Source of the DNA: a virus
Direction: 5' to 3' (one strand)
IMG/VR virus record: IMGVR_UViG_3300047449_000027
Coordinates: 1-37,353 of that record
DNA: 37,353 nt
This document shows positions 29,681 through 37,353 of this stretch, in pieces. Made by a program: the position numbers and the translations under genes. The notes under the pieces are model-generated. The model did not search any database, was not told the DNA's origin, and was given only the letters and a program-made list of their open reading frames with translations. The stretch's first letter is position 1. Each line of letters opens with the position of its first letter.

Positions 29681-29883
29681 TAAACAAGACCTTCCTGTAT
29701 GATCATGTACACCACTCTCTCATCATCGGTCTCGACTGAGATGTCCATCTTTGAGTCGACACCTTCGATCACCTCGATGTGACACTCATACTCTTCAGCC
29801 ATGTCACAAAGGTAGCTCTTAAAACTATCCTTCTCAACCTCAGTCCAACCCATACTGTTTATCAGAACCTTCTTCATTTCCAT
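29680..29883 (-). CDS. hypothetical acidic protein, 67 aa
   Basis: Unrecognised. It is acidic, with a predicted helix (KDSFKSYLCDMAEEYE) and two strands (HIEVIEG, VVYMIIQEG). It overlaps the HNH gene upstream by 44 bp and shares one base with the ninG-like gene. Translation could start at Met1 or at Met3 (29877). Its place among nuclease genes suggests a partner, but no function can be assigned. Confidence 0.65.
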   Translation of the reverse strand: MEMKKVLINSMGWTEVEKDSFKSYLCDMAEEYECHIEVIEGVDSKMDISVETDDERVVYMIIQEGLV

Positions 29884-30283
29884 AAAGTTTCTTTCTCATG
29901 TATTTAACGCAACTGTCAAAGTCATCGAACCTAACACCGTTGGCTTCATAGGATGCTCTCCTGGCATTGCAACTCCTACAACTGCCCACAATGTTACTTT
30001 GGTCGTAGCCAGAAATGCCCTCTCCATCACATCTGTTCAGCGGAACAACATGATCAGCTTCGTTCGCTTCCGTCACCTTACCCAGATGTAGACACCATTG
30101 GCATATAGCGTCCCTATTGAGCACCGCTTCTCGCGTAGACCTCCATTGAGATGTCTTGTAAAACCCGTTGCTGGCCACACCCTCAAACGGACGCACAAGG
30201 TTTCCACCCTCAAGTTTCCTTCGATTCCTACCCTGCTTTTTCGCAAGCCATGGTTTGGGACGTGCCTTTCGTTTTAAGTCCAT
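29840..30283 (-). CDS. HNH endonuclease, 147 aa
   Basis: Residues 56-110 are the HNH module: Cys61 and Cys64 (CQWC), the ADHVVPL block with His78, Asn97 in SNIVGS and Cys102/Cys105 (CRSC). In HK97-like phages an HNH nuclease encoded beside the terminase is needed for DNA cutting during packaging (known for HK97 gp74). It is the first gene of the leftward block. A TACCTTTG promoter-like box lies only 4 bp upstream of its ATG. Confidence 0.9.
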   Translation of the reverse strand: MDLKRKARPKPWLAKKQGRNRRKLEGGNLVRPFEGVASNGFYKTSQWRSTREAVLNRDAICQWCLHLGKVTEANEADHVVPLNRCDGEGISGYDQSNIVGSCRSCNARRASYEANGVRFDDFDSCVKYMRKKLYGNEEGSDKQYGLD

Positions 30284-30287
30284 GAAT

Positions 30288-30324
30288 CAAAGGTAGGGTG
30301 ACGAGGGTGACTTTATTTTCAAAA
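30288..30324 (-). promoter_or_regulatory. candidate promoter of the leftward operon
   Basis: On the minus strand TACCTTTG (30295-30288) matches the Bacteroidota -7 box TAnnTTTG. A TTTTG (30324-30320) lies upstream with a 24-bp spacer, somewhat longer than the usual 19-21. The ATG of the HNH gene follows after only 4 bp, so the message would be nearly leaderless. Two TCACCC sites sit inside the spacer and could be operators. Confidence 0.35.
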
Positions 30325-30540
30325 CTTTTTCCTATTGCTAAAATCGGCTTAGATATACTTTTAATTATTTTATGTCACCTTCTCACCCTAAAGGGTTGTA
30401 ACCCCTGAGTTCATTGGCGCTACCCTGGGTGAGTTTTTGGGTGAGTTGTGTCTTTTTTGATCACCCTGAAGCCTCTATGTCACCCCCCCCGTACCTCTAA
30501 ATGGGTGACGAAATCCTGACGAAAGTGAGATTAGGGTGAC
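30296..30540. repeat. cluster of GGGTGA / TCACCC sites
   Basis: GGGTGA occurs on the plus strand at 30296, 30305, 30427, 30439, 30503 and 30534, and its complement TCACCC at 30383, 30461 and 30480; a near match (GTCACC) is at 30374. Ten sites in about 245 bp is far above chance for a 6-mer. Two of them overlap the candidate leftward promoter. This looks like a multi-site binding region for a regulator or for terminase. Confidence 0.75.
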
Positions 30541-30614
30541 TTTAACTCCCCCCTCCTCGTATTGAAACGCGTTTAAAGAAAGCCCGCCCGCCGACGGTCC
30601 CCGTTCACTGCCAT

Positions 30615-30632
30615 ATCGTGTCCAAAGTACAC
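30615..30632. repeat. 18-bp dyad, left copy
   Basis: ATCGTGTCCAAAGTACAC. The same element with TT in place of AA recurs at 30748-30765. Its GTGT and ACAC ends are complementary. It begins 24 bp before the first iteron. Confidence 0.7.
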
Positions 30633-30638
30633 CTACCC

Positions 30639-30738
30639 TTCGTCGACAATTATAGCGTGTTCGTCGATGATAATGTGTTGTTCGTCGATTCGTCGATGAT
30701 TATATGTCTTTCGTCGACGATTATAGGCTATTCATCGA
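30639..30738 (+). repeat. iteron array, TTCGTCGA with 21-bp period
   Basis: TTCGTCGA starts at 30639, 30660, 30681, 30689 and 30710, with a degenerate TTCATCGA at 30731. All spacings are 21 bp, apart from the 8-bp step at 30681-30689. Most copies continue as ATGATTATA or similar. A 21-bp period puts every core on the same face of the helix, as for origin iterons or stacked operators. The same cores recur in phase at 31401-31450 and inverted at 31326-31354. Confidence 0.85.
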
Positions 30739-30747
30739 AATCCCAAC

Positions 30748-30765
30748 ATCGTGTCCATTGTACAC
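30748..30765. repeat. 18-bp dyad, right copy
   Basis: ATCGTGTCCATTGTACAC, followed by G so that CGTGT and ACACG form a 5-bp inverted repeat. With the copy at 30615 it brackets the first iteron array. Confidence 0.7.
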
Positions 30766-30788
30766 GTTTCAATTTAGTGAATGCTGAA

Positions 30789-30805
30789 ATGTTAAAATAT
30801 GTTAA
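30789..30805 (+). repeat. 17-bp direct repeat ATGTTAAAATATGTTAA, copy 1
   Basis: Identical to 31062-31078. It is AT-rich and contains two TGTTAA halves 10 bp apart, about one helical turn. Confidence 0.7.
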
Positions 30806-31061
30806 CGCCGTCGAACGTGTTGCTTTTTTACGTATACGCGAGCACTGGTTTATATGTTGATAACTTTGTTAATAACTCTCGCAAAATAGGCTGGTTTTCG
30901 CTTGGAATTGCAAGGAATCCGACAGAGCCGTTTTTTAGCCGTTTTAAGCGACTTTGGGTGCATTGTGGGGGTGCACTACCTGTTTTGATTTTTTCGACGT
31001 TTTCGGTCTGAGCGTCGATGAACGTACAATTTTCTTCGATTAACGGATTTTTGGTGTTATA

Positions 31062-31078
31062 ATGTTAAAATATGTTAA
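31062..31078 (+). repeat. 17-bp direct repeat ATGTTAAAATATGTTAA, copy 2
   Basis: Identical to 30789-30805. It lies about 100 bp before the ATATATATATA tract near 31173. Confidence 0.7.
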
Positions 31079-31186
31079 AACGTACATATCATACGAAAAA
31101 TAGTTGCCTTTTTGTTTGGATTTGTCAACTTATTGTTTTATACGCGTGCGGGCGGGCGTCGCGCGTTCCTAGTATATATATATAGC

Positions 31187-31382
31187 TAATCCATTGATTA
31201 TCAGTGAGTTAGGCGGATATATTATATATCGCCCTCGTAACTTGCTGGTTATCAGTGCTTTAAAAAAAAGTTGAAATTTAGATTGATTCTAAATAAGGGC
31301 TAACTGCCTGTGAATCAGTGAGTTATCGACGAATCGCCTGATAATGTCGATGAACCATAACTGCCTGTGAATCAGTGAGTTA
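31187..31382. repeat. four 25-bp dyad repeats
   Basis: Copies at 31301-31325 and 31358-31382 are identical: TAACTGCCTGTGAATCAGTGAGTTA, which has the symmetry TAACT-N2-CTG-N5-CAG-N2-AGTTA. Degenerate copies lie at 31187-31211 and 31238-31262. Start-to-start distances are 51, 63 and 57 bp. The dyad form suggests binding by a dimeric protein or a hairpin if transcribed. Between the two perfect copies sit two inverted iteron cores exactly 21 bp apart (31326 and 31347). Confidence 0.8.
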
Positions 31383-31400
31383 CGTGATTTGTCTAAAATT

Positions 31401-31450
31401 TTCGTCGAAGATTATACTACATTCGTCGAGGTTTTTATGCTATTCGTCTA
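31401..31450 (+). repeat. second iteron cluster, 21-bp period
   Basis: TTCGTCGA at 31401 and 31422, and TTCGTCTA at 31443, each 21 bp apart. The first continues as AGATTATACTACA, close to the copies in the first array. It ends 16 bp before the candidate rightward promoter, so the binding protein could also act on transcription. Confidence 0.8.
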
Positions 31451-31465
31451 ATAGTTTGCATCAAA

Positions 31466-31498
31466 TTTGGAAAGAAAAGGCATTCGGTCGCATCTTTG
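31466..31498 (+). promoter_or_regulatory. candidate promoter of the rightward operon
   Basis: TTTG (31466-31469), a 21-bp spacer, then CATCTTTG (31491-31498), which matches seven of eight positions of the Bacteroidota TAnnTTTG box with the expected spacing. Transcription would start near 31503, just before the hairpin-rich leader. No better candidate was seen for this operon. Confidence 0.45.
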
Positions 31499-31518
31499 GG
31501 GTATCAATAACGACAGCG

Positions 31519-32007
31519 CCACCAGCCATGGTGGGACACCCCCTAACGAGGGGGGGAAGGCGAATTATATACTGACGACATCTCAATAGCCGATTGGCTC
31601 AATGGGAAAGGTATGCACTAGCGCGTACGGGACAGAAAAGTCTATGATGGGAATTCCGTGGAATTTCACTACTGGGCGAACTATGTCGTGTATAGGGTAA
31701 TTACTGGAACCGGAGAGACGACCACGGCGACTTTCGAACTATTGGGTGAGTTATGTCCGGTCGAGTCTCAGGAGACCACCGGATTCCTCCACAAATTTGT
31801 GAATGGCTTCCCTACAAGAGTTAGGTAGGGGATCGTGCGCCATGACATCGAGCGACAACACAACATTCACACTTAAGGTGGGCAGGGGATAAAATTAATG
31901 CATCGATGAGATGCCCTTACTATGACGGGAAACGTGAGCCATACGATGGCGCAGATACGAGCGAGACGTATCGTTTCCGCTAAAATCAACAAGGGTGAAT
32001 TACGCCC
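31519..32007 (+). ncRNA. candidate structured RNA leader of the rightward operon
   Basis: Hairpins read from the sequence: 31519-31534 (CCACCA/TGGTGG), 31539-31554 (CCCCCT/AGGGGG), 31588-31599, 31756-31783 (TCCGGT/ACCGGA enclosing GTCT/AGAC), 31790-31801, 31808-31832 (8 bp), 31900-31914 (GCATC/GATGC) and 31993-32007. A likely three-way junction spans 31928-31978: GGAAAC/GTTTCC closes GCCAT/ATGGC and GATACG/CGTATC. CCGTGG (31656) can also pair with CCACGG (31722). It does not look like tRNA, tmRNA, RNase P RNA or a riboswitch I know. It could also be structured DNA. Confidence 0.5.
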
Positions 32008-32026
32008 AAGAACCAAGAACCAAGAA
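32006..32026 (+). promoter_or_regulatory. triple CCAAGAA leader before the first rightward gene
   Basis: CCAAGAA occurs three times in tandem (32006, 32013, 32020), 15 bp before the ATG at 32042. Single copies of CCAAGAA precede the starts at 32152, 32363, 32527, 33161 and 913, and CCAAGACA precedes those at 80, 500 and 34228. It takes the place of a Shine-Dalgarno sequence. Confidence 0.65.
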
Positions 32027-32041
32027 ACAAAATCAAGAATC

Positions 32042-32152
32042 ATGCAAGACGTTTTAACATCCTTAATCCTGTTCTCAACCTTCGGCATCGTTGTCGCTCT
32101 TTGGGAATTAGTAGAATACGCAATCAAATCAATCTTCAAATCCAAGAAATAA
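32042..32152 (+). CDS. single-pass membrane peptide, 36 aa
   Basis: Begins MQDVLTSLILFSTFGIVVAL. Residues about 5-21 form one transmembrane helix, and the C-terminus ends in Lys residues (IFKSKK). The ATG at 32042 follows the CCAAGAA leader. The upstream ATG at 31922 is rejected because it would run through the hairpin region. It is the first gene of the rightward operon and is thus expressed first. Possible roles include superinfection exclusion or host takeover; neither is shown. Confidence 0.6.
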   Translation: MQDVLTSLILFSTFGIVVALWELVEYAIKSIFKSKK

Positions 32153-32349
32153 TGAAGTACAATTACAAGCCGGACGCTCAAATGCAAGAACTCAACAAGC
32201 GGCTCGCCACCTGTGGTGGATTCGAGCGAAGACTCATCGAAGCATTCTTCGAGGCAGACGGAAGCAACGCCGAACGACTCGAAAAAGCCTTCAAAGGTAC
32301 ATGGTACGACCTAACCAAAGATGACAACGGACAAGACCTCAAAGCATAA
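32152..32349 (+). CDS. hypothetical protein, 65 aa
   Basis: The ATG overlaps the previous stop (TAATG) and is preceded by CCAAGAA (32142). The product is helical and charged (ELNKRLATCGGFERRLIEAFFEAD). It is unrecognised, with no membrane segment. An upstream ATG at 32101 would overlap the membrane peptide gene and is less likely. Confidence 0.65.
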   Translation: MKYNYKPDAQMQELNKRLATCGGFERRLIEAFFEADGSNAERLEKAFKGTWYDLTKDDNGQDLKA

Positions 32350-37193: not shown

Positions 37194-37290
37194 TGCTGAA
37201 GATATTTTAACAATCGTTGTGAGCAAGAATGACGTGACCCATTCAGTAATTAACGTACCTTTGGACAAACCCCAAGACAATGAAGTATGA
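37150..37290 (+). CDS. hypothetical protein across the contig joint, 46 aa
   Basis: Begins MKAEIQGVTIETNNDAED and ends at a TGA inside the repeated terminal segment, so it is complete only because of that repeat. The same 3' end is at 1-90. Beta-type residues dominate (TIVVSKNDVTHSVINV). It is unrecognised. It joins the right-hand cluster to the gene at 80, which supports a single continuous operon. Confidence 0.6.
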   Translation: MKAEIQGVTIETNNDAEDILTIVVSKNDVTHSVINVPLDKPQDNEV

Positions 37291-37353
37291 AATAACAGAA
37301 GCCCAGGAGCAGTCAATCAGCATCATCAAGGATGACCATGCTCTTGCTAATCC
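37201..37353. repeat. terminal redundancy identical to bases 1-153 except two bases
   Basis: The sequence from 37201 repeats the start of the window. Differences are T/C at 127 versus 37327 and C/A at 150 versus 37350. Both lie in the last 27 bases of the overlap. This is the pattern of a closed circle cut by an assembler and not of a phage terminal repeat, since a gene runs through the joint and the copies differ. Confidence 0.9.
37280..37353 (+). CDS. second, partial copy of the 5' end of the gene at 80
   Basis: Duplicate of 80-153 caused by the overlap. It encodes the first 24 residues with Asn in place of Thr at position 24, then is cut by the end of the sequence. It should be dropped when the circle is closed. 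Confidence 0.85.
   Translation, partial: MKYEITEAQEQSISIIKDDHALAN

Follow-up and report, generated by a model that had tools for sequence, protein, structure and literature searches.

Short repeats at 21-bp spacing in a phage divergent control region as a probable operator array for a host regulator

The control region between the late and early genes of a phage with a presumed Bacteroidota host contains clusters of an 8-bp core, TTCGTCGA, repeated at intervals of 21 bp. These repeats probably constitute an operator array for a host regulator, for which a LytTR-type protein is the best candidate; we infer binding and activation from the sequence, spacing, helical phase, and conservation of the array pattern, which recurs in unrelated phages and on bacterial chromosomes.

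Repeat cores in the intergenic region

The window, i.e., the whole stretch of DNA analyzed here, is a 37,353-bp virus record that is complete or nearly so. Positions 37201-37353 repeat positions 1-153 with two mismatches, and by virtue of this 153-base overlap of the record ends, the phage genome can be closed into a circle. The late genes (terminase, portal, and structural) are oriented leftward, up to an HNH endonuclease gene, and the early genes run rightward from 32042. All repeats lie within the 1,868-bp divergent gap between the HNH gene (-) and the early genes (+), at 30284-32151; the array region is gene-free, as had been noted earlier. The main features are as follows:

29840-30283, minus strand: HNH endonuclease gene, which opens the leftward late operon (ATG at 30283)
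30288-30323, minus strand: leftward promoter predicted immediately ahead of the late genes, TTTG-N24-TACCTTTG (two in the window, 1.1 expected)
30615-30632, plus strand: imperfect palindrome ATCGTGTCCAAAGTACAC left of array A, a possible operator (more copies of the motif in relative L122)
30639-30738, plus strand: array A, six TTC(G/A)TCGA cores at 30639, 30660, 30681, 30689, 30710, and 30731
30748-30765, plus strand: the palindrome again, as ATCGTGTCCATTGTACAC, on the right side of array A
31326-31354, minus strand: inverted pair, 21 bp apart, TTCGTCGA at 31326-31333 and TTCATCGA at 31347-31354
31401-31450, plus strand: array B, cores at 31401 and 31422 (TTCGTCGA) and 31443 (TTCGTCTA), preceding the predicted early promoter
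31466-31469, plus strand: TTTG, predicted as the -33 box for the early genes (conserved in relative L125)
31491-31498, plus strand: predicted -7 box CATCTTTG, 40 bp past the final array B core and likewise conserved in L125
31503-32041, plus strand: extended untranslated leader between the predicted start and the first early ORF (at 32042)
32152-32349, plus strand: early-operon gene downstream of the leader

Exact copies of TTCGTCGA occupy 30639, 30660, 30681, 30689, 30710, 31401, and 31422 on the plus strand and 31326 on the minus strand; the whole window contains 10 such copies versus 1.3 expected. The remaining three repeats, at 30731 (TTCATCGA), 31443 (TTCGTCTA), and 31347 on the minus strand (TTCATCGA), are one-mismatch variants. 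All copies listed in an earlier note on this DNA, including the inverted pair, are thus present, and their enrichment is far above that in shuffled sequences: 11 TTC(G/A)TCGA cores fall within 30284-32151 versus 3 in the remaining 35.5 kb, and the gap contains six core pairs at 21 bp versus none in 1,000 dinucleotide shuffles. Successive cores of array A are separated by 21 bp, apart from one additional 8-bp step (30681 to 30689). The 21-bp spacing holds within each cluster, but the common register proposed for the two clusters does not, because their offset of 762 bp is not a multiple of 21. The cores lie two helical turns apart, so that a bound protein would line up on one face of the helix, and this part of the earlier proposal, a putative protein-binding array, is supported.

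The conserved part of the repeat unit is confined to 8-10 bp. Bases 0-7 of the core are conserved at 95% or more and spacer bases at 61% or less, although the search itself used the core, and its conservation is therefore partly by construction. The core is almost palindromic (TTCGwCGAA), and the spacers are AT-rich and unconserved. A literature search on the 8-bp core matched 527 papers, and none of the 30 listed seemed relevant.

The locus was scanned for the 21-bp unit in related phages, as the earlier note had suggested, and the cores proved to be kept in L122, L125, L012, L141, L128, L131, and L127. In the first three, array A is retained, with substitutions within the cores restricted to G/A at the fourth base, and the inverted pair is identical in L125 and L012; among such near relatives, the cores persist and the spacers change. 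In L141, L128, L131, and L127, cores occupy the same locus despite divergence of the rest of the region. In the more distant relatives, with primases 86-89% identical, the gap has been rebuilt and the cores are still there.

Arrays at promoters of unrelated phages and on Bacteroidota chromosomes

Exact-match scans, all counts from which refer to the matches listed, identified at least 120 stretches of viral contigs with two cores 21 bp apart. Together with the three-copy loci, these contain at least 145 pairs, of which at least 35 lie outside long open frames. The non-coding phage arrays represent about ten lineages among the matches listed, any two of which have at most one or two distant proteins in common; the spacers between their cores vary freely. 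When spacings of 17-25 bp were scanned, non-coding phage pairs numbered eight (five contigs) at 21 bp versus three over the eight other spacings. The corresponding numbers for coding pairs were 16 and 80, with peaks at 18, 21, and 24 bp, as codons predict. The arrays precede structural and small early genes, and one contig, L032, has two of them. Neither of two isolated Bacteroidota phages that were checked has an array, and the site is therefore not universal; a concatenated array query against isolated phages likewise gave no match.

The same pairs are found on bacterial chromosomes. Non-coding pairs across 114 genomes from a single Bacteroidota family number 28 at 21 bp versus 2 at 20 bp, and coding pairs 11 at 21 bp versus 28 at other spacings (Fisher 2.6e-8), with the reservation that some host sites are orthologous, so that their effective number is lower. 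A three-copy genome scan gave 74 matches among those listed, nearly all of them exact coding tandem repeats, which were set aside; the two matches with the most diverged spacers are both from Bacteroidota. Host sites precede genes for secreted proteins, one family of which is conserved (MKNLFAMTAALL...), as well as a gene for a SiaB-like kinase. They have typical chromosomal genes, among them dnaB and metK, as neighbors and accordingly are not prophage leftovers (host gene names and families, i.e., dnaB, metK, SiaB-like, and WYL, were assigned by eye from the sequences).

Promoters of Bacteroidota combine TAnnTTTG as the -7 box with TTTG as the -33 box. The -7 motif occurs within 120 bp downstream of 9 of the 21 phage arrays and upstream of one, versus a mean of 0.9 in shuffles. 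For the eleven strong phage promoters, scored blind to position and from sequence only, the -7 box lies 29, 29, 29, 30, 30, 30, 31, 39, 40, 51, and 61 bp beyond the last core. These distances recur at turn-sized steps, indicating that they are phased to the DNA helix: the offsets correspond to 8.6 bp plus a multiple of 10.5 bp (R 0.92, simulated p 5e-6 versus uniform positions), a p value that is optimistic, since some of the arrays had already been inspected when the promoter score and the 10.5-bp period were settled on. Collapsing related phages leaves the phasing intact (R 0.95). The predicted early -7 box of the window is in the same helical phase as those of the unrelated phages. Among close relatives scored with the same program (n 3-9), no phasing was detected, and several have a promoter of the 8-12-bp class. 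At strong host promoters, the -7 box lies 8-11 bp after the second core, or 29 bp, with one at 1 bp; host phasing is of borderline significance and is not significant with a loose promoter score (threshold 9.5). The 8-11-bp position, which shares the phase of the phage promoters, would suit repression no less than activation.

No clear promoter accompanies array A or the inverted pair. The predicted leftward promoter stops 5 bp short of the HNH start codon and has GTCACCC repeats in its spacer; with an early promoter predicted on the plus strand and a late one on the minus strand, the gap qualifies as a divergent promoter region. The promoter type and the shared site are also the main reasons to regard Bacteroidota as the likely host of the window phage. 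Its exonuclease is 49% identical to exonucleases of Flavobacterium phages, and the best match is to a Synechococcus phage (56%). No close DNA relative was found among the isolated phages searched.

The earlier note had interpreted the repeats as iterons of a replication origin or a centromere-like site. Indeed, the arrays resemble the iteron origins of plasmids and phages in having direct repeats two helical turns apart, with a period of 20-22 bp, in intergenic DNA rich in A+T, and the cumulative GC skew reaches a minimum nearby. However, the skew switch at the array region coincides with divergent transcription and is accounted for by gene orientation: at third codon positions of the coding strand, the two gene sets agree in the sign of the skew (-0.076 and -0.055), leaving no separate replication signal. 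A search of the intergenic region for the DnaA box TTWTNCACA found none. Unlike classic iterons, the units are conserved over only the 8-10 bp of the core, with unconserved spacers, and several arrays may be present per genome, each at a promoter, as in the unrelated phages, where they precede several genes and are phased to promoters; the pairs upstream of ordinary host genes also speak against an origin. No initiator gene tracks the array. Of the two DnaA domain IV-like proteins put forward as partners, the 36188 product has no match in L125, L127, L128, or L131, all of which bear arrays, and the 4152 product is restricted to the close family, being absent from 15 array-bearing records outside it; nor is any phage protein common to the array-bearing phages. 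On the grounds of DnaA boxes, skew, co-occurrence, and promoter phasing, we rejected the classic iteron reading, under which a phage or host initiator would bind the repeats; it is very unlikely, and the repeats give no reason to assume an origin in the gap.

Candidate regulators of the arrays

An operator array for a repressor or activator encoded by the phage itself would be consistent with the location of the arrays at phage promoters and with the operator-like palindromes flanking array A. Yet the about ten lineages have almost no proteins in common, and the same pairs occur on bacterial chromosomes. Furthermore, a search of 16 phage records for a LytTR gene found none, and a phage-encoded LytTR protein was discarded as the partner. 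We regard a phage-encoded regulator as highly improbable. Since phage LytTR genes were not found and the 4152 and 36188 products do not track the array, a host factor is the simplest reading, and the regulator is very likely a host protein of some kind.

Published LytTR sites, such as those of AgrA, AlgR, ComE, VirR, and HdrR/BrsR, are short direct repeats about two helical turns apart that precede the promoter at a constant helical phase; typically, 9-bp repeats are separated by 12 bp and strongly favor a position 10 bp before the -35 element (PMC6193735). For comparison, we took LytTR sites to be direct repeats of 8-13 bp with about 12 bp (11-13) between them, the promoter-proximal one preceding -35 by about 4-11 bp (mostly 10). 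The arrays agree with this pattern in spacing, non-coding pairs in both phages and hosts occurring at 21 bp and rarely otherwise, as well as in distance to the promoter: TTCGTC is separated from TTG by 8-10 bp in 7 of the 11 phage promoters, in helical phase, by 18-19 bp in two, and by 40 bp in one, whereas L025 lacks a TTG. In the window, the separation is 18 bp, i.e., one turn more. The core also shares GTTCGTC with the AlgR box, CCGTTCGTC (PMC4064291), but this match is only partial because a purine mostly precedes the core (A in 47%, G in 35%) and the core ends with GA. Besides this new GA-ending core, the phage arrays differ from described LytTR sites in having three to six cores and Bacteroidota-type phage promoters, and their regulator is only putative.

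The 21-bp period, the distance of about 10 bp or one turn more before the -35/-33 element, and the AlgR-like core make LytTR the most plausible type, and we give this candidate about an even chance. LytTR genes are present in 15 of the 16 host genomes with sites (some of the genomes used are incomplete, perhaps including the exception, G337), which is weak support because such genes are common across the phylum; one REC-LytTR ortholog is found in at least 12 site-bearing host genomes. Autoregulation is common, though not universal, in LytTR systems. A strict or relaxed search of 30 LytTR loci found no core pairs upstream; LytTR autoregulation is therefore not seen here, and we abandoned it as proof of the partner.

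The same operator array might instead be bound by a host regulator of another family, namely a WYL-domain HTH, XRE, or AraC-type protein. In L513, L514, and L515, a WYL-domain HTH gene (family assigned by eye) lies upstream of a site and its SiaB-like gene, possibly forming a regulatory module in Bacteroidota, and in L330 an XRE gene is located 117 bp downstream of a site; the near-palindromic core also counts in favor of another family. However, this adjacency is not general, the neighbors being different in L516 and most other loci. AraC half-sites (araI1/araI2) are likewise 21-bp direct repeats adjoining the -35 element, but each 21 bp contains two conserved blocks, whereas the arrays have one block plus an AT-rich spacer and comprise more than two units. 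A regulator from one of these other families appears unlikely.

In the favored model, with a LytTR-type host protein as the best candidate, the regulator would occupy each 8-10-bp core. Bound to array B, upstream of the early -33 box, it would contact RNA polymerase and turn on the early operon; array A and the inverted pair might act at weaker promoters nearby or provide additional sites for cooperative binding. More tentatively, it is possible that many unrelated Bacteroidota phages have independently placed lytic promoters, through phased multi-copy arrays, under one LytTR-type host regulator that also controls host genes for surface and secreted proteins, in which case phage transcription would depend on the sensory state of the host. 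Little is known so far about how Bacteroidota phages start transcription from the unusual promoter of this phylum. The occurrence of the site in about ten phage lineages and on host chromosomes, with a strict rule for the distance to the -7 box, amounts to a directly testable regulatory code, by which phage promoters can be recognized in metagenomes and hosts predicted, and which points to a host regulator possibly exploited by phages.

Other elements of the intergenic region

An Rfam search of the region and leader returned no match. The leader is similar in sequence in the window and L125 (folding z -1.26 for 31503-31990). A different conserved leader of about 500 nt is found in L127 (520-1000) and L131 (715-1255), with a folding z of -2.05 for the latter. 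Many contigs of the relatives (L125, L128, L131, L177-L189) end at or near this intergenic region, and both L128 and L131 start with GTCCCA; the breaks may be caused by repeats or by a physical end.

Between arrays A and B there is an imperfect 25-bp palindrome, TAACTNNNTGANNATCAGTNAGTTA, in four related copies (31187-31211, 31238-31262, 31301-31325, and 31358-31382). A literature search on it found no paper. Its pattern occurs in 89 viral contigs and in none of 101 genomes of one Bacteroidota family, often paired around G+C-rich DNA and not at TAnnTTTG promoters. Closer to the late genes, GGGTGA is present in nine copies, in both orientations, within 250 bp (30296-30539), and two of these copies fall within the predicted leftward promoter, in its spacer; this cluster is a possible operator for the late genes. 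Finally, AATGTTAAAATATGTTAA forms an exact repeat at 30788-30805 and 31061-31078, 273 bp apart.
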